Origin: Burkholderiales bacterium
GTDB lineage: Bacteria; Pseudomonadota; Gammaproteobacteria; Burkholderiales; SG8-41
Direction of reading: 5' to 3'
DNA: 48,493 nucleotides
Assembly (NCBI GenBank): GCA_019751125.1
Contig: JAIENU010000026.1
Location: 1 to 48,493 of the forward strand
The notes under the pieces are model-generated. The model was not told the origin of the DNA and made no database searches. It saw only the letters and a program-made list of their open reading frames with translations. Shown here in pieces: positions 3,878-23,461 of this stretch. The position numbers were made by a program, and so were the translations under genes. The stretch's first letter is position 1. The number at the start of each line of letters is the position of its first letter.

Positions 3878-3887
3878 GAGAACCGCG

Positions 3888-6623: not shown

Positions 6624-7733
6624 TTATTTTTCGAGATGCGGGGCGACTTCGCGGCGCAGGAACTGGTGGAAGTGAACCATGCCGTCTTCATAGGGCGTCT
6701 GGTAGGGGCCGGCTTCGCTGCGGCCCTGTTTCCACAAGGCGCGCCGGCCTTCGGTCATGCGCGCGATGATTTCGGCGTCTTCAACCGCGGTTTCGCGGTA
6801 CGCCGCCTGCTCGGCTTCGACAAACTCGCGCTCGAACAGCGCGATGTCTTCCGGGTAATAAAACTCGACCACGTTGCTGCAGGCCTCGGGGCCGCGCGGC
6901 ACAACGGTGCTGACCACCAGCACATGCGGATACCACTCGACCGTGATGTTGGGGAAATAAGTCAGCCAGATCGCGCCGTGCGCGGGCTGTTTGCCCTCGC
7001 TGTAACGCAGCACTTGCTCGTGCCAGCGCTGGTATACCGGGCTGCCCGGACGTGCCAGACCGTTGGCGACACCGCAGGTCTGCACGCTGTACCAGTCGCC
7101 GAACTCCCAGCGCAGGTCGTTGACGTTGACAAAGCGGCCGAGGCCCGGATGGAAGGGCTCGACGTGGTAATCCTCAAGATAGACTTCGATGAAGGTTTTC
7201 CAGTTGCAGGCGTATTCCTCGATCTCGACGCGGTCGAGCATGTAACCGCTGAAGTCGAGGTTTTTCATCACGCCGAGTGCTGCAAGGTCGCGCGCAATGT
7301 CGCGGCGGCCGGCGAACAGCAGGCCGTTCCAGTTCTGCAGCGGCGTGCGCGCGAGGTCGAGGCAGGGTGTTTCCGGGAAATGCGGTGCACCGAGCAGCTT
7401 GCCGTCCAGGCCGTAGGTCCAGCGGTGCAGCGGGCAAATGATGTTCTGCGTATTGCCGCGATCCTTGAGGATGATCGCCTGACGGTGGCGGCAGATGTTC
7501 GAGAGCAGCTCGACGCCGTTGGCATTGCGCACCAGCGCCTGCGCGTTGTCGAGCCAGGCCAGCGCGTGATAGTCGCCGGTGTTCGGCACCATCAGTTCGT
7601 GTCCGACATAACCGGGGCCGCGGTCGAACAGCAACTGCAGCTCAAGCGCGTAGAGCTTCGGATCGAAGTACCAGTGAACCGGGAGTTGCGTTCCCGAGTG
7701 GCTGAGTGCGGAAACGCTGGAAAGGTCGGACAT
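6624..7733 (-). CDS. Rieske non-haem iron oxygenase, alpha subunit type
   Basis: A 369-residue ring-hydroxylating-oxygenase-like protein. The Rieske [2Fe-2S] ligands are C81-x-H83 (CRHR) and C100-x2-H103 (CPLH). The catalytic domain shows the mononuclear iron motif in YLEDYHVEPFHPG. The family hydroxylates or demethylates aromatic and quaternary-amine substrates; the overall length and the LEDYHVEPFHP block resemble the choline monooxygenase / carnitine oxygenase branch, but no substrate can be assigned. No reductase or ferredoxin gene is adjacent, so electrons must come from elsewhere. It is transcribed alone, with a 268-bp upstream gap. Confidence 0.88.
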   Translation of the reverse strand: MSDLSSVSALSHSGTQLPVHWYFDPKLYALELQLLFDRGPGYVGHELMVPNTGDYHALAWLDNAQALVRNANGVELLSNICRHRQAIILKDRGNTQNIICPLHRWTYGLDGKLLGAPHFPETPCLDLARTPLQNWNGLLFAGRRDIARDLAALGVMKNLDFSGYMLDRVEIEEYACNWKTFIEVYLEDYHVEPFHPGLGRFVNVNDLRWEFGDWYSVQTCGVANGLARPGSPVYQRWHEQVLRYSEGKQPAHGAIWLTYFPNITVEWYPHVLVVSTVVPRGPEACSNVVEFYYPEDIALFEREFVEAEQAAYRETAVEDAEIIARMTEGRRALWKQGRSEAGPYQTPYEDGMVHFHQFLRREVAPHLEK

Positions 7734-8001
7734 GCAGCAGGGTGTCTGGTGGCGGTTGGGCGGCCTGGTTTGATCTTGCGACAGCTTCAGAACTTCGCTT
7801 CAAGGGCCTGATTTTTAACGGGATTTAAGCCCGGACTGAACGCCAAAAAAGAGGCGCCATTTTTCCCCAAGCCCCCTCAAAAGGCAACAAGATTTTCCCG
7901 GCAGCGCTGTCGGCCACACTCGATGAATGTTTATAAGCCATTGTTTTTAAACATTAATTTATGGGCTGCCGGTTTGTTGTAAATGAGCCAGTGCTGCTCG
8001 T
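7734..8001. other. Intergenic region upstream of the Rieske gene
   Basis: A 268-bp gap between the oxygenase start and the end of the glycosyltransferase gene. The part from about 7925 to 7980 is conspicuously A/T-rich in an otherwise GC-rich window and contains AAGCCAT and ATGGGCT as a loose inverted pair. This is a plausible promoter and operator zone, but I cannot define a site. Confidence 0.3.
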
Positions 8002-8649
8002 TCAGGCGGCAGCATCACCACCAAGCAAACCGCTCGCCTGCAGGCGCAGCCAGTCCTGCGGGCGGTCGATGTCCCACAGCGCTTCGAGTTCCAGCCAGGC
8101 GAGGCCGCAGTCGCTCAGTCGCGTACGTGTTTGCGCAAGCACCTGATCGCCGCCCCAGTCGATGCCGCTGAACAGCCGTGGCTCATTGCGTGCGAGTCCG
8201 ATCAGCACATAACCGCCATCCTCGGCCGGCACCAGCACGGCGTCATTGCCATCCTGCAGTTGCTTCGCCGCTGCAAGCAGATGTGCCGCGGTCAATGCCG
8301 GACAGTCGCTGCCGATGCACAACACACGCTGTGCGTCCTTCAGCGCCAAAGCAAAGGCATGGGCAAGCCTTGCGCCGAGATCAGCACCTTGCTGGACGTG
8401 CAGGCTCGCGCCATGGCGCGCGGCTGCGGCGACCAGTTGCGGATGGCTTGTATCCGGCGTGCACCACAGTTGCAGCCTTGCCGGTGCTGCGGCGGCTGCG
8501 GTATCGAGGGCATGGTTGAGCAGGCGGCTTTGCGCCGCCGCAGCACCTTCGGCACCAAGCAGCGGTATCAGCCGCGTCTTGCTGCTGCCGGGCAGTGGTG
8601 CCCTGGCGAAGACCAGCAGCGTGAAATCGCCGTGTTCAGCGGCGGGCAT
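8002..8649 (-). CDS. TIGR04282-type (DUF2064) glycosyltransferase, arsenosugar-cluster associated
   Basis: A 215-residue nucleotide-sugar-transferase fold protein. Recognisable blocks are LLVFARAPLPGSSKTRLIPLLG at the start, then LCIGSDCPALTAAHL, and later VLVPAEDGGYVLIGL, the DUF2064 core. This family is a regular companion of radical SAM ArsS genes. The preferred ATG at 8649 lies inside the last codons of the preceding glycosyltransferase gene (14-nt overlap), which indicates translational coupling; a longer in-frame start at 8694 exists but adds residues unlike the family. It is the last gene of the minus-strand cluster that begins with arsS. Confidence 0.87.
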   Translation of the reverse strand: MPAAEHGDFTLLVFARAPLPGSSKTRLIPLLGAEGAAAAQSRLLNHALDTAAAAAPARLQLWCTPDTSHPQLVAAAARHGASLHVQQGADLGARLAHAFALALKDAQRVLCIGSDCPALTAAHLLAAAKQLQDGNDAVLVPAEDGGYVLIGLARNEPRLFSGIDWGGDQVLAQTRTRLSDCGLAWLELEALWDIDRPQDWLRLQASGLLGGDAAA

Positions 8650-10465: not shown

Positions 10466-12598
10466 TTAGTTTCGTCGCCATGCGTGAAACTTTTCAACCC
10501 ATGCCAGCAGGCCCTGTGGTGCATGGGCACGCTTCCAGTTGCCCGCCACATATTTGTTGGCTTCCGCCAGCGTCGGGTAGATGTGGATGGTGCCGAGGAT
10601 CTTGTTCAGACCGATGCCGTGTTTCATCGCCATCACGAATTCGGTGATCAGGTCGCCGGCGTGTTCGCCGGCAATGGTGGCGCCGAGGATTTTGTCGCTG
10701 CCAGGGGCGGTCAGCACCTTGACCAGGCCGTGGGCATTGCCGTCGGCGATGGCGCGGTCGAGGTCGTCGATGCCGTAGGTGGTGACTTCGTGCGGGATGT
10801 TCTTTTCCTTCGCCTCGCTTTCGTTGAGTCCGACGCGGGCGACTTCGGGGTCGGTGAAGGTGGCCCAGGGAATCACGGAAAAGTCGGCGCGGAATTTTTT
10901 GAATCCACCGAAGAGGCCGTTGACCGCTGCATACCAGGCCGTGTGCGCCGCGGTGTGGGTGAACTGGTAGGGGCCGGCAACATCACCACAGGCGAGGATG
11001 TTCGGATACTTGGTCTGCATGAATTCGTTGACTTCGACTGTGCGCGATTTCGTCACCGGAATGCCGAGTTCCTCCAGACCGTAACCCGTGGTGTTGGCAA
11101 CGCGACCGACCGCGCAGAGCACGGCATCGAAGGCGATGCGTGCGGTGCCCCCGGCGTGTTCGCAGTAGAGCACCTTCTCGCCGTTCTCGATGGCAAAACG
11201 CTGCGCCTTGTGGCCGGTGAGCACGGTGATGCCTTCACTGCGGAATTTTTCCAGCACCATCGCCGAGATTTCCGGGTCTTCGCGCACCATGACCCGCGGC
11301 AGCATTTCGACCTGGGTCACCTGTGCGCCGAGACGGGCGAAACACTGGGTCAGCTCGCAGCCGATGGGGCCGCCACCCAATACCACCAGGCGTTTCGGCA
11401 GCGTGCGCAGGCCCCACACGGTGTCGGAAGTCAGCACGCCGACTTCATCAATGCCGGGGATCGGCGGCACAAAGGGACGCGCGCCGGCGGCGATGACGAT
11501 GCCGCGGGTGCTGAGTGTCTGTGTCCCTGTCGCGGTCTTGATCTCGACGGTCCACGGCGAGGTGATCTTTGCCTCGCCCTGCAGGCATTCGACGCCAAGC
11601 TGGGTGTAGCGCGCGATCGAGTCATGCGGCTCGATATCACGGATCACCCGTTGCACGCGTTCCATCACTTCGGCGAAATCAAAATCGATGTTGATGTCCT
11701 TCAGGCCGTAGTGGCTGGCCCGTTTCATTGTCGCCACCAGTTTGGCTGACTTGATCAGCGCCTTGGACGGTACGCAGCCGGTGTTCAGGCAGTCGCCGCC
11801 CATCCTGTGTTTTTCGATGAGCGTGACCTTCGCCTTCACCGCGGCGGCGATGTACGAGGACACCAGCCCGGCGGAACCGGCGCCGATCACCACCAGGTTG
11901 CGGTCGAAGCGCGCGGGTTTTTGCCAGCCCGCATAGACCTTGCGGGCCTTCAGCGCATCGAGGATTTTTTTGGCCAGCAGCGGAAATATCCCGAGCAGCA
12001 CAAAGGCGCCGACCAGCCCGGCGGAGATGCGGAATTCGCCGAGTTGGGTGCCGGCGTACACATACACCACGGTGCCGGCCAGCATGCCGATCTGGCTGAC
12101 CCAGGCGTAGGTCCAGGTACGGATCGGCGTCAGGCCCATCAGCAGGTTCACCGCAAAAAACGGAAACACCGGCACCAGACGCAGCGCGAACAGGTAAAAG
12201 CCGCCCTCGCGGGCCACGCCATCATTCACTGCGCGCAGCCGCTCGCCGAATTTCTGCTGCACCCAGTCGCGCAGCAGGAAACGCGAGGCGAGGAAGGCCA
12301 GCGTCGCACCGAGCGTCGAGGCGAATGACACGATCACGGTGCCCCACAGCAGGCCGAAGATCGCACCGGCGACCAAGGTCATGATCGCCGCCCCCGGCAG
12401 CGACAGGCCGGTGACCGCGACATAGGCAGCGAAAAACAGCAGTACGGCGCGCAGGGGTCTGGCTGCGACTTCGGCTTCGATGGCCGCGCGCTGTGACTGG
12501 AAATATTCCAGCGAGAAATAACGCTGCAGATCGAAGGCAAAAAACGCGATCACCGCTGCAACGATGATGATAAGCAGTAAGCCTTTGTTTTTATTCAT
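10466..12598 (-). CDS. Fusion of a VTT/TVP38 membrane domain and a mercuric-reductase-like flavoprotein
   Basis: A 710-residue fusion. Residues about 1-230 form a TVP38/TMEM64 (VTT, DedA-like) membrane domain with the block GAAIMTLVAGAIFGLLWG. From about 235 a class I pyridine-nucleotide disulfide oxidoreductase begins with VVIGAGSAGLVSSY, followed by the redox motif GGDCLNTGCVPSK, an NAD(P) site VVLGGGPIGCE, and the dimer-interface motif HIYPTLAEANK. There is no N-terminal heavy-metal domain and no C-terminal CC pair, so mercury reduction is unlikely. The start at 12598 shares one base with the preceding stop (TAATG), so it is coupled to the metallophosphoesterase gene. It is placed in the inner membrane with a cytoplasmic NAD(P)H-dependent reductase; the substrate is unknown. 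Confidence 0.9.
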   Translation of the reverse strand: MNKNKGLLLIIIVAAVIAFFAFDLQRYFSLEYFQSQRAAIEAEVAARPLRAVLLFFAAYVAVTGLSLPGAAIMTLVAGAIFGLLWGTVIVSFASTLGATLAFLASRFLLRDWVQQKFGERLRAVNDGVAREGGFYLFALRLVPVFPFFAVNLLMGLTPIRTWTYAWVSQIGMLAGTVVYVYAGTQLGEFRISAGLVGAFVLLGIFPLLAKKILDALKARKVYAGWQKPARFDRNLVVIGAGSAGLVSSYIAAAVKAKVTLIEKHRMGGDCLNTGCVPSKALIKSAKLVATMKRASHYGLKDINIDFDFAEVMERVQRVIRDIEPHDSIARYTQLGVECLQGEAKITSPWTVEIKTATGTQTLSTRGIVIAAGARPFVPPIPGIDEVGVLTSDTVWGLRTLPKRLVVLGGGPIGCELTQCFARLGAQVTQVEMLPRVMVREDPEISAMVLEKFRSEGITVLTGHKAQRFAIENGEKVLYCEHAGGTARIAFDAVLCAVGRVANTTGYGLEELGIPVTKSRTVEVNEFMQTKYPNILACGDVAGPYQFTHTAAHTAWYAAVNGLFGGFKKFRADFSVIPWATFTDPEVARVGLNESEAKEKNIPHEVTTYGIDDLDRAIADGNAHGLVKVLTAPGSDKILGATIAGEHAGDLITEFVMAMKHGIGLNKILGTIHIYPTLAEANKYVAGNWKRAHAPQGLLAWVEKFHAWRRN

Positions 12599-13590
12599 TA
12601 TTTTGTTTGTCCGGATTGCAACTGCCGCAGCAACTGTGGATGGATGCGAATGCCCTGGCCCATGGCGCGGTTCAGGCCGTAACGCGGGCCGTTGCGGATA
12701 CGCGCCGCATACGACAAGGCGGCGTCGCTGCCCTCCGGCCACTGCGCATCAAACTCCTGTTGCCAGACCTCGCGGTCGTAGTGCAGCGGCAGGGCGTCGA
12801 TATGCACGCCGTCAATCACCGTGCCGTACAGCGCGGGCAGGGGCGACGGTGTGGTGGCAATGCGCGTGATCACGCCAAAACCGGTGCCGGCGAAATTGGG
12901 CATGCCGGCGGCGCCGTTGTTGAACAGCGCGCAGTCGCGGCCACCGGCGCTGAAACGCACAGCCACCGGCAGGCAGGTGTGGCTGCTGGCGATCACACGC
13001 ACGCCGGCGGCTTCGCAGTGTGCGGCAAGGCGGCCGATACCTGCGGCATCACGCAGTGCCGATTCGTCATACGACCAACCGGCCAGCGATTCACAGTCGC
13101 CATGCACGATGGCCACCCGCAGGCCGCCGGTTTCGGCGGTGAGTGTTATTGGCAACGTTCCGAGCCGTGAGCGCAAGGCCGGCGCGGCGCGCGCGGTATC
13201 GCGCAGCCGCGCGAGGATGGCATTCGAGCGCGCCACCTCGGCCTCGTTGACCGATTCGGGGTAGCCGCAACCGCAGCCCGCTGCATTGTCATCACCGGCG
13301 AGTTCGGTTTCGACATTGCCGCGCAGCGCGTGGTGGCGCAGTACGGTGTTGTTGATGTCGCTGAACGCGGCGGCATCACTATTGAACCAGTTGAAGTCGC
13401 CGTTGAACACCAGCGTCGCCTGTTCCCCGGCGACCATGGTTTCAAGGGCGCGCAGCGCGGGACGGTTGCCGTAGAGCCCGCCGATCACATACAGCGTGTC
13501 GGCATGGATCTCCGGCGCGCGGTTGAGCGAGGACGTCGCGTAGCGGTAGTGCAGAGGGCAGCTGCGCCCCGGTTGGCTCGGCGTCGTCAC
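12598..13590 (-). CDS. Metallophosphoesterase-like protein of the arsenosugar-type cluster
   Basis: A 330-residue calcineurin-like phosphoesterase, judged from DTLYVIGGLYGNRPAL (degenerate GDxHG region), VFNGDFNWFN (GD), ALRGNVETEL (GNxE), VAIVHGDCESLAG (GH-like) and SSHTCLPV. The usual GDxHG motif is altered to GGLYGN, so metal binding at site one may be unusual. A CGCGYPES segment in the middle adds three close cysteines. The start is GTG at 13590 in a GTGA overlap with the symporter stop. Related phosphatases occur next to ArsS, where a dephosphorylation step would fit; the substrate is not known. Confidence 0.8.
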   Translation of the reverse strand: MTTPSQPGRSCPLHYRYATSSLNRAPEIHADTLYVIGGLYGNRPALRALETMVAGEQATLVFNGDFNWFNSDAAAFSDINNTVLRHHALRGNVETELAGDDNAAGCGCGYPESVNEAEVARSNAILARLRDTARAAPALRSRLGTLPITLTAETGGLRVAIVHGDCESLAGWSYDESALRDAAGIGRLAAHCEAAGVRVIASSHTCLPVAVRFSAGGRDCALFNNGAAGMPNFAGTGFGVITRIATTPSPLPALYGTVIDGVHIDALPLHYDREVWQQEFDAQWPEGSDAALSYAARIRNGPRYGLNRAMGQGIRIHPQLLRQLQSGQTK

Positions 13591-14969
13591 TTCGCGCGCA
13601 GCCTTTGCAGGGCGACCGGCAGCAGGAAGCCGGCGACGCAGATCAGCAGGCCGTAGAGGTTCACACCCAGCAGCAGCGCGTATTTGCCGTCACCGATGGC
13701 CCAGCTTTGCGGAATCTGTCCAGCGGCGAGCAGCGTGCCGAGGACCACGCCCGGCCAGAACGCGAGGTGGAAACTCCACGGCGAATGTTTGACCAGTGGC
13801 GCGAGCAGGAACACCGGCGCGAGGCCCATCACCATGGTGCCGCTGATGGTGGTGGCTTTGAGGATGTCAGTGCCGGCGATCATCGGCAGGTTGCCGAGCA
13901 GCGCGAAGGCGCACATCGTCCACATGCCGATGAGCATCGCGCGCGGGCCCGGCTTGCGGCCGGCGAGCATCGGCAGTTCCTGGCCTATTGATTTCGCCAC
14001 CGAGGAGAAGGTCGAGTCCAGGGTCGAGCCCGCGGCCATGATCATCACCACCGTCATCAGCAGGTAGGGCAGCACGCCGAAGGCCCCGGCCACCGCGCCC
14101 GGCATGTTGTCGCCGGAAGGCAGGCCCTCCAGCTTGGCGTGCACGCCGACCAGGCTGAAGGCGAAGATGCAGACAAAACCGAGCACGCCGGCGGTGATCA
14201 TCGCGCGCAGCATGGTTTTTTCGCGGGTGATGAAGCCGCGGTCGGTGAGCACCGGATCGTGGAAGGGATAGGACAGCACCTGCAGCAGCGCGACCAGCAC
14301 CAGATCGACGCCGGCATTGAGGCGGAAATCGCCGACCGTGAGCAGCGTGCCCAGGCCATGTTTCGGCAATACCAGGAACAGTACCACGCCGAGCACCACC
14401 ACGAACAGCACCGCCTGGATGACGTCGGTGAAGATGGAACTGCGCAGGCCGCCCTTCAGGCTGTAGAACAGCGTCGCCGCGGTGAACAGCAGCGCCGAGC
14501 CGATGAAGGTCCACTCGCCGGCCTGGCCGTAGTAGGCGCCGACCACCGCGGTGTTGCTCCACACTTCGTTGTAGAGCCGGATCAGGATCGCCAGCGTGAA
14601 GGCGAGGGCGGCGAGCCGCCCGTAACGCTGGATCAGGAAAGGCACCAGCCCCGTTGCACCGTGGCGGGTGCGCAGCCAGTAGATGACCAGGCCGGCGACC
14701 GGAATCGACAGCCAGTAGGTGGCGTAGGCCAGCCCGCCGACCACACCCCAGGCGGCGCCGAGGTTGGCGGCATTGGTCACCGACTTGGCGAAAATCCAGC
14801 TGATGAAAATGCTGCACATCAGCGCCCATTCAGTGGCGGGCCGACCGGCGTCGTCGCTGCCGGTAAAAAAACTCGCCTCGCTGCGCGCGTTGGGCGAGAT
14901 CGCGTACATCACGCCGCCGTAGAGCAGCAGGAAACCCCAGAAATAAATGGCGAAGGCGGGTTCGATCAC
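13587..14969 (-). CDS. Sodium:solute symporter (SSS) family transporter
   Basis: A 460-residue polytopic membrane protein with about 12-13 hydrophobic helices. SSS-family traits include the first helix FAIYFWGFLLLYGGVMY, the block FISWIFAKSVTNAANLG, LYNEVWSNTAVVGAYYG, YSLKGGLRSSIFTDVIQ and the sodium-site region AAGSTLDSTFSSVAKSIG. I place the start at GTG 14969, which overlaps the arsS stop as GTGA; the longer frame has an arginine-rich head unlike the family. The substrate is unknown. Its place between arsS and the phosphoesterase gene suggests movement of an organoarsenical, a sugar precursor or a cosubstrate. Confidence 0.88.
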   Translation of the reverse strand: MIEPAFAIYFWGFLLLYGGVMYAISPNARSEASFFTGSDDAGRPATEWALMCSIFISWIFAKSVTNAANLGAAWGVVGGLAYATYWLSIPVAGLVIYWLRTRHGATGLVPFLIQRYGRLAALAFTLAILIRLYNEVWSNTAVVGAYYGQAGEWTFIGSALLFTAATLFYSLKGGLRSSIFTDVIQAVLFVVVLGVVLFLVLPKHGLGTLLTVGDFRLNAGVDLVLVALLQVLSYPFHDPVLTDRGFITREKTMLRAMITAGVLGFVCIFAFSLVGVHAKLEGLPSGDNMPGAVAGAFGVLPYLLMTVVMIMAAGSTLDSTFSSVAKSIGQELPMLAGRKPGPRAMLIGMWTMCAFALLGNLPMIAGTDILKATTISGTMVMGLAPVFLLAPLVKHSPWSFHLAFWPGVVLGTLLAAGQIPQSWAIGDGKYALLLGVNLYGLLICVAGFLLPVALQRLRAK

Positions 14970-15937
14970 TGTCCACCCTCCAGTGCGCCGCCGCAGCTCG
15001 AACCCTGACCGGCGGTGCAGCCGTAGCAATGGTCGCGCACGACGATGGCATTGCCGTCGAGGTCGGCGCCGAGCAGTTCACGCAGATGGGTGCGCGGCTT
15101 GTTTTTCCAGGCCAGCGGCAGGCCGAGCATCTGGTTGAAGTCGCAGTCGTAGACGTAACCCTGCCAGTCCACCGACAGCAGCGAGCGGCACATCACGGTG
15201 TCGAGGTTTTCCGCGCGATAGGCGTTTTTCAGCAACTGCATATAGGGATCAAACTGGCCCTTGCTCACCAGGGTGCTGCCGAAGCGCTGGATCGGCATGT
15301 TGGTCAGCGCATAGAGCTGGTTGAACTTGATGCCGTACTCCTTGCGCAGATGCTGTTTGTAATCCTGCTCCAGCCCGGCCTGCGGTGGCGGCAGCGCGGG
15401 CCCCTGCGGGTTGTAGACCAGGTTCAGCGCCAGCCCCGAATCCGGCCGGCCGTAACCGAGTGCATTGAGCCGCTGCAGCGCGCGGATGCTGGTGCCGAAC
15501 ACCCCCTTGCCGCGCTGGCGATCGACGTTGTCCTCGAGATAGCAGGGCAGCGAGGCGGTGATTGCAACCTGCTGCGCGGCGAGGAATTGCGCGAGGTCTT
15601 CCTGGCCGGGCTCGAACAGGATGGTCAGGTTGCAGCGGTCGATGACCTGCACGCCGAGCTGGCGCGCGGATTCGACCAGCAGGCGGAAATGCGGATTGAG
15701 TTCAGGCGCGCCGCCGGTGAGGTCGAGCGTGCGGATGTTCGCCGCCTTGAGAAAGGCGACCACTTCAAAAATGGTGTCGCGCGCCATCAGCTCGGTGCGC
15801 GTCGGGCCGGCGTTGACGTGGCAGTGCAGGCAGCTTTGATTGCACAGATAGCCAAGGTTGACCTGCAGGGTGTCCGGCGGCCGGCGGCGAATGGCCGGGA
15901 AATCACTGTGTTCAAGCAGGGGCAGCGTGGCGTGCAT
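14966..15937 (-). CDS. arsS: Arsenosugar biosynthesis radical SAM protein ArsS
   Basis: A 323-residue radical SAM enzyme. The [4Fe-4S] cluster motif is C32-x3-C36-x2-C39, followed by LDLTGGAPELNPHF as in the ArsS family. The C-terminal segment HCYGCTAGQGSSCGG is the diagnostic ArsS tail, in which some homologues carry selenocysteine; here all positions are Cys. ArsS is proposed to add the 5'-deoxyadenosyl group to dimethylated arsenic. It is first in a coupled minus-strand operon (arsS, symporter, phosphoesterase, flavoprotein). An ECF-type promoter lies about 110 nt upstream. No arsM methyltransferase gene is present in the window. Confidence 0.92.
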   Translation of the reverse strand: MHATLPLLEHSDFPAIRRRPPDTLQVNLGYLCNQSCLHCHVNAGPTRTELMARDTIFEVVAFLKAANIRTLDLTGGAPELNPHFRLLVESARQLGVQVIDRCNLTILFEPGQEDLAQFLAAQQVAITASLPCYLEDNVDRQRGKGVFGTSIRALQRLNALGYGRPDSGLALNLVYNPQGPALPPPQAGLEQDYKQHLRKEYGIKFNQLYALTNMPIQRFGSTLVSKGQFDPYMQLLKNAYRAENLDTVMCRSLLSVDWQGYVYDCDFNQMLGLPLAWKNKPRTHLRELLGADLDGNAIVVRDHCYGCTAGQGSSCGGALEGGQ

Positions 15938-16044
15938 TAAAAGCTCCAGGAACCAAAATCGGATTTAATCCCTGCTTGAGTCGCTGTTGCAACGTAAAAC
16001 TTACAGGGAGGGCGCTGACAAGTAGACGCATGGCTGAGCAAATG

Positions 16045-16072
16045 AGACCGCTTATTGAAGGATAACCTTACA
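16045..16072 (-). promoter_or_regulatory. ECF-type promoter of the arsS operon
   Basis: On the minus strand TGTAAG (16067-16072), 18 nt, then GTCT (16045-16048). The hexamer, spacing and tetramer equal those upstream of the ECF sigma gene, the Cys-rich peptide gene and the YHS gene. It leaves a leader of about 100 nt to arsS. A second TGTAAG at 16000-16005 has ACTC instead of GTCT at the same spacing and is a partial match. Confidence 0.7.
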
Positions 16073-16084
16073 GACTCGGTTACA

Positions 16085-16112
16085 TTGCATTTTGGAATGA
16101 TCATTCTATAAT
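16085..16112 (+). promoter_or_regulatory. Sigma-70-type promoter with a palindrome in its spacer
   Basis: TTGCAT (16085-16090) and TATAAT (16107-16112) are 16 nt apart. The perfect 12-bp palindrome GAATGATCATTC fills 16095-16106, so a bound dimer would block RNA polymerase. It reads toward the AhpD-like gene at 16211. Confidence 0.65.
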
Positions 16113-16210
16113 CGTTTAAAGCAAAGTCCAATGACCCCTTATGGGCTGCCGTGACAAGCGCGCCGCAGGTCTCGGTGATCATCCAAAACATCCAGCAAAG
16201 GAAGCATGAC

Positions 16211-16807
16211 ATGTCCCGAATCTCCCCGGCACCCAAGGAGCGCCTTGCCGAGCTCGCTGCGGATTTTGAAAAATCCCGCAAAACCCGCGGATACGTACCC
16301 AACAGCTGGCTGACTCTGGCGCGCAAGCCCCGGATTTTCCGTCTGGTGCGTGAGTTGCGCGATGCGGTGATGGTCGATGCCGGGGAAATTCCACCCGCAT
16401 TACGCTTCATGATTGCAGAGGTGGTCAGCAACGCTGCTGGGTGCCGTTACTGCACGGCGCATAACGCCGAGAGCGCGGTGGAGCGGGGCAAGGTGGCTGA
16501 CGAGAAACTGCACGCCCTGTGGCAGTTTCAGGCCAGTCCGCTGTTTACGCCCGCTGAACGCGCAGCCCTGAATCTGGCGCTGGCTGCCGGCGGCACGCCG
16601 CCCTCGGCGACGGATGCACATTTTGACGAGCTTAAAAAGCACTACTCGGAAGATGCCATCATCGAGATTGTTTCGGTGATATCGATGTTTGGCTGGATGA
16701 ATCGCTGGAACGACACGCTGGCCACTCAGCTTGAAGAGCATCCCCTTGAATTCGCGCGCGAGCACCTAACAGCTTCCGGCTGGACCCCTGGTGTGCACGC
16801 AAAATAA
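16211..16807 (+). CDS. AhpD / carboxymuconolactone decarboxylase-like protein (Cys form)
   Basis: A 198-residue helical AhpD-like protein with the redox site C78-R-Y-C81-x2-H84, expected to act as a thiol peroxidase or disulfide reductase. Downstream blocks include ALWQFQASPLFTPAERAAL and MFGWMNRWNDTLAT. It is clearly paralogous to the gene at 22847, where the second cysteine is replaced by an in-frame TGA. The start at 16211 has AAAGGAAG six bases ahead. Related peroxidase-like proteins are found in arsenosugar clusters, and here it diverges from arsS. A DUF302 gene follows 13 nt later. Confidence 0.9.
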   Translation: MSRISPAPKERLAELAADFEKSRKTRGYVPNSWLTLARKPRIFRLVRELRDAVMVDAGEIPPALRFMIAEVVSNAAGCRYCTAHNAESAVERGKVADEKLHALWQFQASPLFTPAERAALNLALAAGGTPPSATDAHFDELKKHYSEDAIIEIVSVISMFGWMNRWNDTLATQLEEHPLEFAREHLTASGWTPGVHAK

Positions 16808-16820
16808 AGGAGGGAAACAT

Positions 16821-17276
16821 ATGAAGAACCGAATGCCGGCTGTTGTTGGTTTTTTCCTGGTGATGGTATCGACCACGCTCTTTGCCGCTGATGGTCTGGT
16901 CGTGCTCAAAAGTGCCCATGGTGTCAAAACCACCATGGACCGGCTGGAGGCGGCCGCAAAAGACCGGGGGCTCAACATTTTTTTGCGGCTGGATCATGCT
17001 GCGGGTGCGCAAAAAATCGGTAAAACCCTGCGCCCCACTGAGTTGCTGGTTTTTGGCAATCCCCAGGGTGGAACGCCGTTGATGGAGTGCGCGCAAACCG
17101 CGGGGATTGATCTGCCTCTGAAGGCCTTGGTGTGGCAGGACGCCCCGGGACAAGTCTGGCTGGGTTACAACGCGCCCCAATTTCTGGCCACACGACACCA
17201 GACCAGGGATTGCGAGCAGGTGGTTCTGGGCTTGAGCAAAGCGCTGGCTGTGCTCGCCCAGGAGGCCAGCCAATAG
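16821..17276 (+). CDS. DUF302 exported protein
   Basis: A 151-residue protein with a signal peptide (FFLVMVSTTLFAA) and a DUF302 fold: VVLKSAHGVKTTMDRLEAAAKDRGLNIF at the start, then TELLVFGNPQGGTPLM and PLKALVWQD. DUF302 proteins are small periplasmic or cytoplasmic domains of unknown function, often seen beside redox and sulfur genes. An excellent AAAGGAGGG precedes the ATG at 16821. It is probably cotranscribed with the AhpD-like gene 13 nt before it. Confidence 0.88.
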   Translation: MKNRMPAVVGFFLVMVSTTLFAADGLVVLKSAHGVKTTMDRLEAAAKDRGLNIFLRLDHAAGAQKIGKTLRPTELLVFGNPQGGTPLMECAQTAGIDLPLKALVWQDAPGQVWLGYNAPQFLATRHQTRDCEQVVLGLSKALAVLAQEASQ

Positions 17277-17317
17277 TGGCGACCGGTCCAGTCGCTTCAC
17301 CGTGTCCTTGCCTGCCT

Positions 17318-17345
17318 TGTAAGTAATCCAGGCTTTTGCCGGTCT
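17318..17345 (+). promoter_or_regulatory. ECF-type autoregulatory promoter of the sigma factor gene
   Basis: TGTAAG (17318-17323), 18 nt, GTCT (17342-17345), about 45 nt before the TTG start of the sigma gene. Presence of the same element here and before three other genes suggests this sigma factor reads its own promoter. Confidence 0.72.
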
Positions 17346-17390
17346 TTAGGATGGAGCCTGCACCCTGCCGGCTTTTGACCGGGATGAACC

Positions 17391-17900
17391 TTGAAGGAAG
17401 TCGATCCAAATTTTGAAAGCGTGGCCAGGGCGCATGCCGGTGACTTGTTCCGGTTCGCGTTCTGGCTCACCCGCGATCGTCAGCAGGCCGAGGACGTGGT
17501 GCAGGAGGCTTTGTTGCGCGGTTGGCGCAGTTACCGGGGCCTGCGTGAACCAGGCGCCGCCAAGGCCTGGCTGTTCTCGATCGTACGCAACGAGTTTTAC
17601 CGCACCATTTCGGCGAACGCCCGGCATGCCGGCCATGTGGATGTGGCCGACCTTGAAATCGCGGATGAAAGACCCCCCGCGTTCGGGCTTGAAATACGTG
17701 ATGCGCTCAAGACATTACCCCAGACCTATGCCGAACCTCTTGCCTTGCAGGTGCTGGGCGGTTTCAGTTGCGCGGAAATCGCGGAGATGCTCGAAACCAC
17801 GGAGGGCGCAGTGATGACACGTCTGACGCGGGCGCGCCAGACCTTGAAACGTCTGGTCTCGGCTCCCGGGGCCAGGTGGTCAGGTGGAGGGTTGCCGTGA
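17391..17900 (+). CDS. ECF-family RNA polymerase sigma factor
   Basis: A 169-residue sigma-70 family protein with only regions 2 and 4. Region 2 is LFRFAFWLTRDRQQAEDVVQEALLRGWRSY; region 4 is LKTLPQTYAEPLALQVLGGFSCAEIAEMLETTEGAVMTRLTRARQTL. The start must be at or after 17391 because an in-frame TGA lies two codons upstream; TTG at 17391 keeps the usual DPNFE-like N-terminus. The stop overlaps the anti-sigma start as TGATG. Four copies of a TGTAAG-N18-GTCT element around this locus are the probable targets. Confidence 0.93.
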   Translation: MKEVDPNFESVARAHAGDLFRFAFWLTRDRQQAEDVVQEALLRGWRSYRGLREPGAAKAWLFSIVRNEFYRTISANARHAGHVDVADLEIADERPPAFGLEIRDALKTLPQTYAEPLALQVLGGFSCAEIAEMLETTEGAVMTRLTRARQTLKRLVSAPGARWSGGGLP

Positions 17901-18598
17901 TGACATGCCTTGATTTCAGACGTTTGTTGCTGACGGGTGAACCCGAAAGCGCGCTGATGCGCGCCCATCGCCAGCAATGCCCGGCTTGCGAAGCCCATGC
18001 CGTCGAACATGCCTTGTTTGAGCGCGAGCTGGGTCTGGGCTTGAGCGTGCCCGTTCCGCTGGGATTCGAAGAGCGTCTGCTTGACCGGTTGACTGTTCAA
18101 GGCGCTCCGGCACAAGCCCTGCCCAATCCAGGCCGGCGCAGGATGCTCGTCGTTGCGGCTACCACCGTGGTGACCGCAGGCCTGGGGGGCATGATGTGGT
18201 ATCGCCGAGACGACCCACTGGCGATGGATTGCATCCAGTTTGTGATGAAGGAGGAGGCCAAGTCGATCATGATGGGGGCCATGCCGCGCGCCGAGGCTGT
18301 GAAGGCGCTCGCAGAGGTCGTGCCGCTGCAGCGTATCGAGCAGATTGGGCAGATCCTTCACATCGGCCCCTGTCCCTTCAATGGCATCACTGCCTATCAT
18401 GTGGTGATGTCGGTGATGCAGGAAAAAATCACCTTGCTGGTGATGCCGGGTCTCATGGTCTCGGCGCGCAAGCGGGCCGGCCATGATGGCTTGCACGCCA
18501 GGGTGGTTCCCTTGCGCAATGGCAGTGTGGGCATGGTTGGCAGTAATGCCGGATTGCTGGATAACCTGGCCGGCGTGCTGCGTTCACAGAGCACCTGA
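17900..18598 (+). CDS. DUF3379-type zinc anti-sigma factor
   Basis: A 232-residue membrane protein translated from a TGATG overlap with the sigma gene. The N-terminal cytoplasmic part carries H23-x3-C27-x2-C30, the motif of zinc-binding anti-sigma domains, which sense thiol oxidation or metals. One transmembrane helix spans about residues 82-100, followed by a periplasmic domain with GPCPFNGITAYHVVM and ITLLVMPG as in DUF3379. It should hold the sigma factor inactive until a signal arrives. The periplasmic Cys in GPCPFNG could add a second redox or metal input. Confidence 0.85.
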   Translation: MTCLDFRRLLLTGEPESALMRAHRQQCPACEAHAVEHALFERELGLGLSVPVPLGFEERLLDRLTVQGAPAQALPNPGRRRMLVVAATTVVTAGLGGMMWYRRDDPLAMDCIQFVMKEEAKSIMMGAMPRAEAVKALAEVVPLQRIEQIGQILHIGPCPFNGITAYHVVMSVMQEKITLLVMPGLMVSARKRAGHDGLHARVVPLRNGSVGMVGSNAGLLDNLAGVLRSQST

Positions 18599-18769
18599 CA
18601 AAATGTCTCCGCAATGGCTGATTACGGTTCGGGCTCCTGCGATCCATCCATGAGACCCTCCTCAGATACAGCTATCACCTTGTTGATTCGCCCTCCAGGA
18701 GAGCAGAGGATGCACTGAACAGGCTGGTTTTTTTGTTGCCGGATCAACGAAATGGCATGGAGGTAATGA

Positions 18770-19405
18770 ATGAAATCCTGCAAGCTGCACCCGGTCCCGG
18801 ATTTGCTGCGCCGTTCAATGCTTGGGGCTGCGGGTGGTGCTGCGCTGCTGGGTATGTCAGACCAGGTGCGCGCAGCACAACTGGGCGAGGTGATGGGCGA
18901 GCTGTATGTCAACGGCTTCCGTGCGCCGCCGGGCACCGTGATCAAGCCGGGGGACCGGGTGTTGACCGGCCCTGATACCAGTCAGACCTTTGCTGTCGGC
19001 CAGGATGCCTTCAGGATGCGGCCGCTGACTTCGCTGCAGATCGAAGGCGGCGCCTTTGTTGCCGGCCTGCGTGTGCTGACGGGTGGTTTGCTCGGTGTAT
19101 TCGGTCGCGGCGGCACCCGCACCATCCGTACCTCGACGGTGACCGCGGGCATCCGCGGCACCGGCGTTTATGTCGAGGCGAGCTCGATCATGAGCTACTT
19201 CTGCACCTGTTATGGCGAGGTCGACCTAGAGTGCGTGACCTACGGCTCGAAGCAGCGGGTGAAGACCGATAATCACAAGGCCAATTTCATCTACGGCAAG
19301 ATCGACAGCGGCCGTTCCATAGTGAGCGCGCCGGTGGTCAACCACAGCAACGAAGAACTGATGGCGCTTGAAAAGATGGTGGGCCGCAGGTCGCCCTTGG
19401 GTTGA
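18770..19405 (+). CDS. FecR-domain exported protein
   Basis: A 211-residue protein with a twin-arginine-like leader (LLRRSMLGAAGGAALLG) and a FecR-type beta domain: GEVMGELYVNG, PGTVIKPGDRVLTGP, SQTFAVGQDAFRM, and RTSTVTAGIRGTGVYVEA. The C-terminal part contains YFCTCYGEVDLEC with three close cysteines. It has no FecR anti-sigma N-terminus, so it is likely a periplasmic binding or scaffolding protein. GGAGG precedes the start. It lies 171 bp after the anti-sigma gene and probably belongs to the same transcription unit, although I see no TGTAAG-N18-GTCT site directly before it. Confidence 0.85.
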   Translation: MKSCKLHPVPDLLRRSMLGAAGGAALLGMSDQVRAAQLGEVMGELYVNGFRAPPGTVIKPGDRVLTGPDTSQTFAVGQDAFRMRPLTSLQIEGGAFVAGLRVLTGGLLGVFGRGGTRTIRTSTVTAGIRGTGVYVEASSIMSYFCTCYGEVDLECVTYGSKQRVKTDNHKANFIYGKIDSGRSIVSAPVVNHSNEELMALEKMVGRRSPLG

Positions 19406-19470
19406 ACACCGCCCGGCTCTGGTGATCGTTCGGGAGCGGGGTGCGTTTTGAGGGATTGTTTGGCGGCCGA

Positions 19471-19498
19471 TGTAAGGTTCGGTCAAGTGAACAGGTCT
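19471..19498 (+). promoter_or_regulatory. ECF-type promoter of the Cys-rich peptide gene
   Basis: TGTAAG (19471-19476), 18 nt, GTCT (19495-19498), about 65 nt before the peptide start. Same string and spacing as before the sigma gene. Confidence 0.72.
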
Positions 19499-19562
19499 AT
19501 TTGATGCGCAGTCCTCATTCTGCGCGGATTTGATCAACCATCCATCCAAAAAGGAGTCTTTC

Positions 19563-19739
19563 ATGAAGCGCAAAACAACCCTGGCGGCGCTCGCAGCCCT
19601 GTCGCTGGCCACCGCAGTGCCGGCGTATGCGGCCTGCGGTGCCAAATGTGCGGCCAAGTGTGGTGCCAAGGCAAGCGCGAGCAAATGCGCGGGCAAGTGC
19701 AAGGCCAAATGTGGCGCCAAGTGCGCCGCCAAAAAATAG
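19563..19739 (+). CDS. Small exported Cys/Lys/Ala-rich peptide
   Basis: A 58-residue product: a signal peptide (KRKTTLAALAALSLATAVPAYA) and a mature part of about 35 residues with seven cysteines in repeats of the form CGAKC, AAKC, AGKC and KAKC. No globular fold is expected. It looks like a periplasmic metal- or thiol-binding peptide and recalls the low-complexity bufferin/HvfA-type precursors, although no DUF692 (MNIO) or DUF2063 partner is in the window. AAAAGGAG lies ahead of the ATG at 19563, and an ECF-type promoter sits upstream. A perfect hairpin follows 28 nt after the stop. Confidence 0.82.
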   Translation: MKRKTTLAALAALSLATAVPAYAACGAKCAAKCGAKASASKCAGKCKAKCGAKCAAKK

Positions 19740-19767
19740 CGACTGAGCAGGTGTTCTTCTCATTCAC

Positions 19768-19788
19768 GCCCTCCAGTTACTGGAGGGC
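19768..19788 (+). promoter_or_regulatory. Hairpin after the Cys-rich gene that covers a ribosome-binding site
   Basis: A perfect 9-bp stem (19768-19776 with 19780-19788) with TTA loop. It has no T-run, so it is not a classical terminator. Its 3' arm contains GGAGGG, the only strong Shine-Dalgarno sequence for the small ORF at 19793, so pairing would hide it. Confidence 0.5.
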
Positions 19789-19792
19789 GCGA

Positions 19793-19879
19793 ATGAATCT
19801 GTGGCCGATGCAGTGCGTCTATCGGCAGTTTTGCTGCAGCAGCTTCAAGATGTCACGCAAAATCATTGGATGTCATTGA
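19793..19879 (+). CDS. Possible 28-residue leader peptide
   Basis: A short ORF with GGAGGG at ideal distance and a stop that overlaps the ATG of the next gene as TGATG. The peptide has five cysteines, with CC and GCH motifs near the middle and end. It may serve to couple translation to the downstream gene. Existence is inferred only from the ribosome-binding site and overlap; no homologue is known to me. Confidence 0.35.
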   Translation: MNLWPMQCVYRQFCCSSFKMSRKIIGCH

Positions 19880-20529
19880 TGAGCCAAACAGCCGAAACCC
19901 GCCTTCGGCGCATGCGGCTGCATGCCCGACGTTTGAATGGCATGGCGGATCATTGGCGACCCGGCCAGCGAGCGCCCTGGTTTTCTGCCGTGGTCGGGCC
20001 TCGCCGCAATCTGCGGCTGTGGTCCCGCTTTCCGGCGGATGATGTGATTGACAAGGTCACAGGCGCCCAGTTTTTTGTTCACCGTCACGACATTCAAAGC
20101 CATGGCTACGCCCACTTTCACTGCTTTGTTCGCCAGCCCGGCGGGCGCCATGGCTTGCAACGCAAGGCGGTGACTACGCACATTGCTGCAATCGCGGTTG
20201 ACCGTCAAGGCAAGCCAATAAAAATAATAGTTTTAAATCAATGGGTTACCGATGAATTCTGGCAGAATGCGCGCCACACCCTGGCTTTGCTGGAGAAATT
20301 CAGGTTCCAGACACGTACACCCCACGGGCGTGCCGGCAACTGGCTGGAGTCGGTGCTGCATGTGCATTGGCCTGAATTGCGGAAGCTGCTCAAAGTCCGG
20401 GACCAGCGCCTGCAGCGTTGCTTGTCGCTTCATCCGGATATCAATGTGTTGCAGGACCGTCGGCTGGAGATACTCGGCAGCGTCAACATCGACCTGCGCA
20501 AAAGACTCAGGTTGCTTGGCGCCGCCTGA
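19879..20529 (+). CDS. Uncharacterised His-rich protein, resembles DUF6969
   Basis: A 216-residue soluble protein without signal peptide or membrane segment. A central block is rich in histidine (FFVHRHDIQSHGYAHFHCFVR), followed by THIAAIAVDRQGKP and LNQWVTDEFWQNA. The combination of a RFPADDVIDKVTGAQFFVHRH start and HFHCFVR resembles the DUF6969 family, which has no assigned function; I hold that name loosely. The clustered His could bind a metal. I chose the ATG at 19879 because it overlaps the stop of a small ORF with a strong ribosome-binding site; an upstream in-frame ATG at 19801 has none. It follows the Cys-rich peptide and may share its ECF promoter. Confidence 0.7.
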   Translation: MSQTAETRLRRMRLHARRLNGMADHWRPGQRAPWFSAVVGPRRNLRLWSRFPADDVIDKVTGAQFFVHRHDIQSHGYAHFHCFVRQPGGRHGLQRKAVTTHIAAIAVDRQGKPIKIIVLNQWVTDEFWQNARHTLALLEKFRFQTRTPHGRAGNWLESVLHVHWPELRKLLKVRDQRLQRCLSLHPDINVLQDRRLEILGSVNIDLRKRLRLLGAA

Positions 20530-20548
20530 GTCACCATGCGCGTAGCGA

Positions 20549-20965
20549 TCATTTGCGGATTTTTGGCCAGTGCGCATCCCCGGATTTTATGAAACCGGGA
20601 ATGTCTTTTTCCCAGCGCGCGGCAATGTCGCGGTCGAAGTTGAAATACAGCTTGTTGTTCACGACCTTGGCGAAAGCCGGGTCGCCGGGTGCGAGTTGGC
20701 CTTGCGCCACGGCCCAGGCGCAGTAGCCATCATACTGAGGCAGGAAGTTCTGCGGATTGGCGGCGAAGGTGTCCCGGTTGGCCGTGGACGAAAACTGGTA
20801 AGTCTGCCCGCGATATTGATGCGTGATGGTCTTGATGCCCTTGATGGGTTTCCCGGCACTGAAATAGGCCACAGGGTCGTGGCCACTCAGGGCGGTTGCG
20901 CCAACCAGCGGTGCCAGCAATGACAGCACCATCGCAGCCAATGCAATCAGCATGGATTTAAACAT
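20549..20965 (-). CDS. Exported YHS-domain protein
   Basis: A 138-residue protein with a signal peptide (FKSMLIALAAMVLSLLAPLVGA) and a YHS-type domain: LSGHDPVAYFSAGKPIKG, YQFSSTANRDTFAANPQNFLPQYDGYCAWAVAQG, then the C-terminal VNNKLYFNFD. YHS domains are small modules found with heavy-metal transporters and oxidases and are thought to bind metal; this is a periplasmic stand-alone form. AAGGAGT precedes the start at 20965. An ECF-type promoter lies about 65 nt upstream on the same strand, so it is a likely member of the ECF regulon. Confidence 0.87.
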   Translation of the reverse strand: MFKSMLIALAAMVLSLLAPLVGATALSGHDPVAYFSAGKPIKGIKTITHQYRGQTYQFSSTANRDTFAANPQNFLPQYDGYCAWAVAQGQLAPGDPAFAKVVNNKLYFNFDRDIAARWEKDIPGFIKSGDAHWPKIRK

Positions 20966-21029
20966 GACAACTCCTTGAAGGATTGAGGGTTTGTTGCGCA
21001 CGACGACGGACCACCTTTCCGCACGTAAC

Positions 21030-21057
21030 AGACCCGCTGGCGACGGCATAACTTACA
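21030..21057 (-). promoter_or_regulatory. ECF-type promoter of the YHS gene
   Basis: On the minus strand TGTAAG (21052-21057), 18 nt, GTCT (21030-21033), the fourth exact copy of the element. It lies 65 nt from the YHS start codon. Confidence 0.72.
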
Positions 21058-21074
21058 CGGAATCGCGGCGCTGA

Positions 21075-21103
21075 TTGCGGTTCTGGATTCTGGACTGTAT
21101 ATT
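21075..21103 (+). promoter_or_regulatory. Sigma-70-type promoter of the tetR gene
   Basis: TTGCGG (21075-21080) and TATATT (21098-21103) are separated by 17 nt and read toward the TetR gene, whose ATG is 80 nt further. It is back-to-back with the ECF-type promoter of the YHS gene. Confidence 0.45.
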
Positions 21104-21183
21104 CCTTAACTGCGAATTTGACCCGCTTCCAGCCGTTCGGCCCATGGCGTCAAGGCCCACGGTTCTTTTCTGGCAGTGCACAT

Positions 21184-22846: not shown

Positions 22847-23461
22847 ATGAACAAGAATACAAAACCAGATCCCCGGCTCGCGCCGCTGCCCCAGGAAACC
22901 ACGCCGGAGCTGGCGGCGGCATTTCAGACCTATGTGCGCGTCCTCGGCTTTGTGCCGAACAGCGTGCTGATCATGCAGCGCAAGCCGAAGCTGGTGCAGG
23001 CGCTGTCGCAGCTGGCCGCTGCGACCTGGGATCCGCAGAGCGAGGTGCCGGTGGCGTTCAAGCGCATGCTTGCCCACGTTTCGAGCCGCGCCCACGGCTG
23101 CCATTACTGAATGGCGCACACGGCCGGGGCGGCGCTCGGGCTGGGCATTGAAGACAAAAAACTGGAAGCTGTTTGGGAATTTCGCAGCAGTCCGCTGTTC
23201 ACTGACGCCGAGCGCGCTGCGCTGGAGGTGGCCGTTGCCGGTGCGGCACAGCCGAACGCGGTGACGGATGAGATGTTCACTGAGTTAAAGAAATACTGGA
23301 GCGAAGGACAGATTGTCGAGATCGTCGCGGTGGTGGCGATGTTCGGTTTCATGAACCGCTGGAATGACACGATGGCGACGCCGCTGGAGGAGGAGCCGAT
23401 TCATGTCGGCGAAAAGCATCTTGCACAGAGCGGCTGGAATGTGGGCAAACATCAGCGCTGA
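22847..23461 (+). CDS. AhpD-like selenoprotein with in-frame TGA (Sec88)
   Basis: A 204-residue AhpD / carboxymuconolactone decarboxylase-like protein if TGA at 23108-23110 is read as selenocysteine. The TGA falls exactly in the redox motif, C85-H-Y-U88-x2-H91, where the paralogue at 16211 has C-R-Y-C-x2-H. The reading frame continues without a shift for 116 more codons with conserved blocks FRSSPLFTDAERAAL and MFGFMNRWNDTMAT. The two halves together match the Cys paralogue along its whole length, so this is neither two genes nor a decayed gene. AAAGAGG precedes the ATG. It abuts a second TGA-interrupted gene. An automatic pipeline would call it truncated or a pseudogene. Confidence 0.86.
23124..23139 (+). 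promoter_or_regulatory. Candidate bacterial SECIS element of the AhpD-like gene
   Basis: A GC stem (23124-23130 with 23134-23139, one bulged G, one G-U pair) closes a loop beginning GG about 21 nt after the TGA. Distance and a G at the loop start fit bacterial SECIS rules, but other foldings of this GC-rich stretch compete. Confidence 0.4.

Follow-up and report, generated by a model that had tools for sequence, protein, structure and literature searches.

A two-block DNA element, TGTAAG-N17-GGTCT, occurs four times in a stretch of 48,493 nucleotides from a Burkholderiales bacterium (contig JAIENU010000026.1, here C264, which we analyzed whole and call the window). The four copies are very likely the -35/-10 promoters of an extracytoplasmic function (ECF) sigma factor encoded at 17391–17900 and held by an anti-sigma factor of the DUF3379 family. 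Comparison with related sequences suggests, as part of the same reading, that the block encoding them was acquired and captured a resident operon headed by arsS. The genome comprises 3,457,426 bases (3.46 Mb) in 275 contigs and is 94% complete. The elements and the two regulatory genes are as follows.

16045–16072, minus strand: TGTAAG-N17-GGTCT element, distal, before arsS; found before arsS in 0/13 congeners
17318–17345, plus strand: TGTAAG-N17-GGTCT element before the sigma gene, consistent with autoregulation
17391–17900, plus strand: ECF sigma factor gene with a TTG start; Sigma70_r2 and r4_2 above cut-off, aligned with seven relatives
17900–18598, plus strand: DUF3379 anti-sigma factor gene; PF11859, 67.1 bits (cut-off 33.2)
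19471–19498, plus strand: TGTAAG-N17-GGTCT element before the gene for a Cys-rich peptide
21030–21057, minus strand: TGTAAG-N17-GGTCT element before the YHS gene

The original prediction described the element as TGTAAG-N18-GTCT, and exact matches to this ten-base pattern are present at all four positions. They share a further G before GTCT, giving the form TGTAAG-N17-GGTCT with 11 fixed bases. The ten-base pattern had no match in 100 dinucleotide shuffles of the window. The whole genome contains four matches to it, which are the four in the window, against two for a reversed-pattern control; the strict 11-base form gives four and none reversed. Taken by itself, the genome-wide count of the ten-base pattern is not remarkable; what is surprising is the confinement of all four copies to 5 kb. 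Every copy is oriented toward its gene, and the distances from element to likely start codon fall within the 45–110 nt of the original prediction: 45 nt for the sigma gene (TTG at 17391), 64 nt for the Cys-rich peptide gene (ATG at 19563), 64 nt for the YHS gene (start at 20965) and 107 nt for arsS (start at 15937). The start codons are predicted, and so are these distances.

The interpretation of the 17318–17345 copy as an autoregulated ECF promoter is supported by its retention before the sigma genes of relatives, the conservation on which the original prediction had made its reading depend. We gathered 80 anti-sigma loci by scanning named genomes with an alignment of seven anti-sigma factors; 399 sampled genomes of the order, our own not counted, yielded 12 more. 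Judged by their titles, many of these genomes are metagenome bins. Most loci were chosen for encoding the anti-sigma factor, and the nearness of the element to a sigma gene is partly due to this selection. An adjacent sigma gene was not found in five of 101 loci (L073, L099, L108, L128, and L156) and L146, with too little upstream sequence, was left out of the scan, leaving 79 loci outside the family of our genome and 16 within it (assigned by matching contigs). A weight matrix built from 11 elements (four of the window and seven of family loci) gave a significant match in 55 of the 79 non-family loci, in the region from -110 to +12 relative to the start of the sigma gene. Merging five duplicate upstream sequences left 74 distinct loci, 52 of them with a match, compared to 26 of 2,960 random windows; the 17-nt spacer was retained in 50 of these 52. 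Strict matches in the 92 anti-sigma loci (1.10 Mb, duplicates included) numbered 33, and reversed matches 0. Both the reversed and the random-window controls were drawn from the same loci as the element counts. Bases outside the fixed ones also converge in 57 elements (T-rich after the -35 block, CC before the -10 block), and variants with TGAAAG and GGTCA or GGTCC occur, for example, in Luteibacter loci.

The GGTCT block ends only 8 nt before the likely first ECF start codon at four loci (L155, L163, L168, and L100), and the sigma mRNA may therefore be leaderless there. L100 encodes two tandem ECF sigma factors before the DUF3379 gene (positions 6965–8004 of that locus), with a GGTCT element before the first, whose product is 46% identical to the second ECF sigma factor of our own genome (C244).

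The element also recurs before other classes of genes. We identified 59 distinct strict elements in all of the loci gathered, the window's included, and sorted their targets with sequence rules written after reading the loci. Twenty lie ahead of an ECF gene or at the start of a sigma operon: 14 lie before an ECF gene (the first of two tandem genes in L100 and L091), three before thioredoxin-like genes and three before small lipoprotein genes, the latter two classes heading sigma operons. Another 17 precede genes for Cys-rich exported peptides, 11 of them of the NPCAAK type, four of the DUF2282 type and two of other types; two more are the window's arsS and YHS elements. Within the family, the element lies upstream of sigma genes, of the small lipoprotein genes at the head of sigma operons and of genes for NPCAAK-repeat peptides. 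Some of these peptides are fused to a cytochrome c domain, which in L121 matches SoxA/TsdA cytochrome c. The element of L131 precedes a DUF2282 peptide gene followed by genes for an MNIO enzyme and a DUF2063 protein, which is the bufferin arrangement. We take the Neisseria genes NMB2141–2143 to be bufferin-type genes too. Their operon (NMB2140–2145) includes a DoxX-like gene (PMC2893595), and bufferin-1 clusters can include sigma and NrsF genes (PMC12452194). Cys-rich exported peptides of other sequence types thus have the element too, but the window's own peptide is without a relative in the 100 loci searched with tblastn. The genome had no match to MNIO enzymes (PF05114) at its 94% completeness, and the window's peptide is therefore probably not modified as are bufferin-type ribosomally synthesized and post-translationally modified peptides.

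The protein encoded next to the sigma gene has the motif of a zinc-type anti-sigma factor and, by prediction, an RseB-like C-terminal domain. The sigma factor itself is of the ECF type, with regions 2 and 4 only. The anti-sigma factor carries the HX3CX2C motif of zinc-type anti-sigma factors at H23, C27, and C30. We compared it with 91 anti-sigma factors (a wider set, after removal of eight loci whose names marked them as duplicates and of short proteins) and aligned 51 chosen from them by hand. The invariant columns of this alignment are R7, H23, C27, C30, P53, A87, C158, H167, and G208. C158 and H167 are kept in all 91 proteins, and the literal HX3CX2C motif in 76; the Luteibacter version is HX3CX3C, and two proteins from Motilimonas, outside the 51, are without the HX3CX2C motif. 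The predicted model (predicted local distance difference test score 89.2, predicted template modeling score 0.60) comprises N-terminal helices, a long and possibly membrane-spanning helix (residues 77–101) and a beta domain at the C-terminus. Foldseek returned MucB and RseB as the best, albeit weak, matches (best E 0.037). VIA-align gave Z scores of 7.9–8.4 to six RseB/MucB entries over 87–97 residues and 8.5 to 1vr8, with the next row at 5.4; a Z near 8 can arise without kinship. Also against a fused membrane sensor are the moderate confidence of helix 77–101 (block means 56–79) and its marginal hydropathy (1.65). By sequence, the nearest solved relative is RsiW (E 0.0035). C158 and H167 sit on neighboring predicted strands (151–160 and 163–172) and could form a metal site. 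The protein had been predicted to be a zinc-type, redox-sensitive anti-sigma factor: the motif agrees with the zinc type, redox sensitivity is unproven and the protein looks membrane-bound with a periplasmic domain. E. coli RseA-RseB and Pseudomonas MucA-MucB pair a membrane anti-sigma factor with a periplasmic RseB fold, RseB being a separate protein. The RseB-like domain appears here, by contrast, to be fused to an anti-sigma factor bearing a zinc-type sigma-binding part. The term DUF3379 was not found in the open-licence papers searched.

The genes between the DUF302 and TetR genes of the window form a block that congeners lack.

17277–21183: segment between the DUF302 and TetR genes, absent in six congener contigs by contig comparison
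18770–19405, plus strand: exported protein of no known family, 211 amino acids; no Pfam or NCBIfam match at E 0.1
19563–19739, plus strand: 58-amino acid Cys-rich peptide, N-terminus signal-like by eye in the translation; no family above cut-off
19876–20529, plus strand: DUF6969 protein; PF22308, 152.8 bits
20549–20965, minus strand: YHS-domain protein; NF041384, 141 bits (cut-off 70)

The 3.9 kb between the two flanking genes encode the sigma factor, the anti-sigma factor, the exported protein, the Cys-rich peptide, the DUF6969 protein, and the YHS protein. DUF302 is directly followed by TetR in six of the 13 congener contigs around arsS (L247, L248, L249, L253, L258, and L259), and the DUF302 stop and TetR start overlap as TGATG in the four junctions inspected. 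Among the other contigs, five are without both genes, one has only DUF302, and the last, with neither, ends inside the adjoining CMD gene. The anti-sigma factor had no match in 20 congener genomes and was found in 17 of 74 family genomes (at most 38 candidates scored per genome). Insertion of the block is a simpler reading of this distribution than its loss in the congeners. The exported protein has an 82% identical homolog elsewhere in the congener G016, and the block may thus be composite; DUF6969 relatives were found in 15 of the 100 loci searched, duplicates included. Immediately 3' of the Cys-rich peptide gene is an 18-nt inverted repeat with a 1-nt loop (19760–19796).

The arsS operon next to the block has two promoter-like elements in tandem, the distal GGTCT copy and a proximal one of a different form.

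15979–16005, minus strand: TGTAAG-N16-CGACT element, proximal, before arsS, the form of the congeners
14966–15937, minus strand: arsS-type radical SAM gene, first of the resident operon; TIGR04167, 463 bits (cut-off 300)
13587–15029, minus strand: putative SSS-type transporter gene, a weak assignment (sss model 31.9 bits, below the cut-off of 184)
12598–13590, minus strand: protein of unknown family in the arsS operon; no Pfam or NCBIfam match at the thresholds used
10466–12742, minus strand: membrane domain (TVP38-like by eye) fused to a MerA/lipoamide dehydrogenase-type oxidoreductase; no model over cut-off

The transporter gene adjoins arsS in 12 of the 13 congener contigs, 12 of 13 also have the gene of unknown family, and a gene of the 10466–12742 type lies beside arsS in relatives. 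All 13 congeneric regions upstream of arsS contain [T/C]GTAAG-N16-[C/T]GAC[T/C] (N17 in one), a relaxed pattern written after seeing these sequences and matched in 3 of 3,900 shuffles. None of the 13 has the GGTCT element before arsS, and the window has both forms. The absence of the block in congeners together with the restriction of GGTCT before arsS to the window suggests that the acquired sigma factor captured the resident operon. Three betaproteobacterial loci (L107, L121, and L137) tie arsS to this type of sigma factor independently: an element stands at the start of a series of genes in one orientation, for thioredoxin-like, sigma, anti-sigma, and ArsS proteins. L121 was confirmed to have a DsbD-like gene. 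Elsewhere among the sigma-linked loci (L069, L070, L072, and L178), it is the CGACT form of the element that lies before arsS. We rejected arsS as a marker of the sigma factor; it scored above cut-off in 59 of 74 family genomes, versus 17 of 74 for the anti-sigma factor. The designation of the operon as arsenosugar-type is doubtful. ArsS (TIGR04167) is present, and the genome has no match to the arsenosugar-type ArsM model (NF038099), which in the relative L070 matches a gene beside arsS at 548 bits.

The CGACT form may mark a second, resident ECF-type regulon in the genus. Exact TGTAAG-N16-CGACT matches show no excess in 21 genomes of the genus (32 versus 55 reversed), and the support for the form is its recurrence before the same genes. 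Across the 30 exact-match loci inspected in the genus (L263–L292), the element lies before arsS in six, before MsrA/MsrB-like genes in four, DUF1223-like genes in five, RimK-like genes in four, other recognizable genes in three, and nothing recognizable in eight; names other than arsS were assigned by eye. The other ECF gene of our genome is followed by one for a 59-amino acid HX3CX2C peptide, the same arrangement as Neisseria sigma-E and its anti-sigma factor, and this second ECF sigma factor may be the one that reads CGACT.

The region has further features. A palindrome, GAATGATCATTC, lies between arsS and a CMD-family gene (16095–16106); it is exact in three of the 13 congeners (L247, L257, and L259), near-exact by eye in L248 and L249 and a possible operator of the TetR protein encoded at 21184. 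A CMD/AhpD-like gene (22847–23461) is split by an in-frame TGA (23108–23110) at the second Cys of its CxxC motif. It reads CHY-TGA where a paralog at 16442 has CRYC, and the same TGA is found in five congeners (L247, L248, L249, L253, and L259) as well as in L067 and L069; the gene likely encodes a CxxU selenoprotein. Positions 3527–5162 hold a gene that by eye is cytochrome c-like and, after it, one for a sulfide dehydrogenase flavoprotein.

We propose that the sigma factor is held by the co-transcribed DUF3379 protein, a membrane protein whose cytoplasmic zinc-type domain would bind it. The periplasmic RseB-like domain, with its invariant Cys158 and His167, would sense metal or thiol stress in the envelope. 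Once freed, the sigma factor would transcribe its own operon, the Cys-rich exported peptide, which could buffer metals or oxidants, and the YHS protein, as well as the resident arsS operon through the added promoter. Insertion would have placed the sigma block between two genes that are immediate neighbors in congeners. The arsS operon would already have had an ECF-type TGTAAG-N16-CGACT promoter, probably that of a resident sigma factor with a small zinc-type anti-sigma factor, and would now be under tandem promoters for two ECF sigma factors.

The promoter of Neisseria meningitidis sigma-E (NMB2144), also an autoregulated ECF sigma factor, consists of GTMAGBWTT at -35, a spacer of 12–13 nt and CGTCTAAH at -10, with transcription starting 6 nt downstream; this consensus closely overlays T-GTAAGnnnn-N13-GGTCT (PMC2893595). 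Its anti-sigma factor, NMB2145, has HX3CX2C and also needs a Cys near its start (PMC2893595). NMB2145 is likened to cytoplasmic redox-type proteins, whereas the DUF3379 protein has a predicted membrane helix and an RseB-like domain. The -10 block is GGTCT here, and msrA/msrB, the second target of sigma-E (PMC2893595), was not seen among the GGTCT targets. Haemophilus influenzae RpoE2-HrsE similarly pairs an ECF sigma factor with a small anti-sigma factor related to the Neisseria one and has an msrAB target, but the anti-sigma factor has 67 amino acids and autoregulation is very limited (PMC7907618). Caulobacter SigF-NrsF shares with our system an ECF sigma factor, an anti-sigma factor with conserved cysteines and a link to metal stress, and differs in its element (GTAACC-N16-CGAA) and in the multi-span membrane topology of NrsF (PMC3511200). 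DUF3379 is unnamed in the descriptions of SigF-NrsF and of bufferin clusters compared (PMC3511200, PMC12452194). In Cupriavidus metallidurans, RpoQ is an ECF sigma factor encoded beside the copper- and gold-induced gigPABT peptide operon and has a predicted membrane anti-sigma factor, RsqA; control of gig by RpoQ is assumed, not shown, in that report (PMC10304878). Among open-licence papers pairing TGTAAG with an ECF sigma factor and promoter, none is on the present element by title.

Several observations weigh against our reading. Twenty-two of the 74 distinct non-family loci have no match near the sigma gene, and in the family only 8 of 16 have one in the scanned window, partly because the element lies farther up, before a lipoprotein gene. 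The genes after 20 of the 59 strict elements belong to no recurrent class; G027 supplies many of these, its 11 matches being mostly before unrelated genes. One of the 20, in L156, proved by inspection to be upstream of a gene for a DUF2282-like (bufferin-like) peptide. The conservation that the original prediction anticipated was not borne out for two of the targets. Besides its absence before arsS in the 13 congeners, GGTCT had no match within two mismatches in seven distinct sigma-linked arsS loci outside the genus and none in 20 arsS loci of the family. The search of the 100 loci gave no relative for either the YHS protein or the window's Cys-rich peptide, and the element before the YHS gene, as before arsS, was seen in our genome only. 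The block shows no clear GC step, and no repeat was noticed at its two ends. Strict matches in 11 family genomes, most of them with the anti-sigma factor, outnumbered reversed ones (29 versus 6), but outside the family, in 11 anti-sigma-bearing genomes of the order, the exact form was not enriched (3 versus 13 reversed), and it is thus a family-level consensus rather than a genome-wide marker elsewhere. In our own genome, the 230 matches with up to two mismatches do not exceed the 456 of the control, and a wider regulon is not supported there. The lack of an overall excess of exact GGTCT outside the family, or of CGACT in the genus, counts against a wide-regulon claim.

These points bear on four other explanations. 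It is rather unlikely that the sigma factor drives only itself and the Cys-rich peptide, the arsS and YHS copies being chance or non-functional and arsS being read from CGACT alone. The absence of GGTCT before arsS in every congener and other arsS locus examined would fit, as would the lack of YHS relatives and the approximately two ten-base matches that the reversed control leads one to expect by chance in the genome. Yet both copies are exact over 11 bases, stand at promoter distance and in promoter orientation less than 5 kb from the sigma gene and have no counterpart elsewhere in the genome; arsS also shares direction, and likely an operon, with the sigma gene in L107, L121, and L137. We regard as improbable that one sigma factor reads both GGTCT and CGACT in a single regulon, without capture. 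In its favor, the two forms have similar -35 blocks, and the -10 block published for Neisseria is CGTCTAAH (PMC2893595). However, congeners carry CGACT elements before arsS, Msr-like, and other genes where no DUF3379 anti-sigma factor was found, the two forms differ by one in spacing and our genome has the other ECF gene with its HX3CX2C peptide.

Operators of a DNA-binding repressor or activator, such as the TetR protein encoded at 21184, are a very improbable account of the elements. A TetR gene does belong to the cluster, and the palindrome recurs before arsS in some congeners. The element, however, lacks palindromic symmetry, keeps its two blocks at a constant 17-nt spacing in one direction and accompanies the sigma gene in different genera. 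The palindrome is distinct from it, and six congener contigs have TetR beside arsS, yet none of the 13 has the element there. Against the 0 of 100 shuffles, the 33 versus 0 matches in 92 loci and the 52 of 74 versus 26 of 2,960, a chance cluster has a negligible probability, despite a pattern picked after reading the sequence and exact matches outside the family that are not above control. As a general account, it is refuted by the conservation before sigma genes.

The promoter type and the anti-sigma motif are of known kind; the DUF3379 architecture, the target set and the apparent arsS capture are new. We are evenly divided on a broader proposal, in which DUF3379 would define anti-sigma factors of a fused RseA-RseB type. 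Across Beta- and Gammaproteobacteria, these would detect periplasmic metals or oxidants with their invariant Cys-His pair and control peptides that are rich in Cys and buffer metals. The module in the window would then have inserted beside an operon run by a second ECF sigma factor and taken it over, producing the tandem promoters. An unnamed family found beside ECF sigma genes in many proteobacterial loci would thereby gain a working role, a promoter and a target set, with a link to bufferin-type and other Cys-rich peptides. The arsS operon would also provide a natural before-and-after case of an acquired sigma factor recruiting a resident operon, in which the wiring of a stress switch can be tested.

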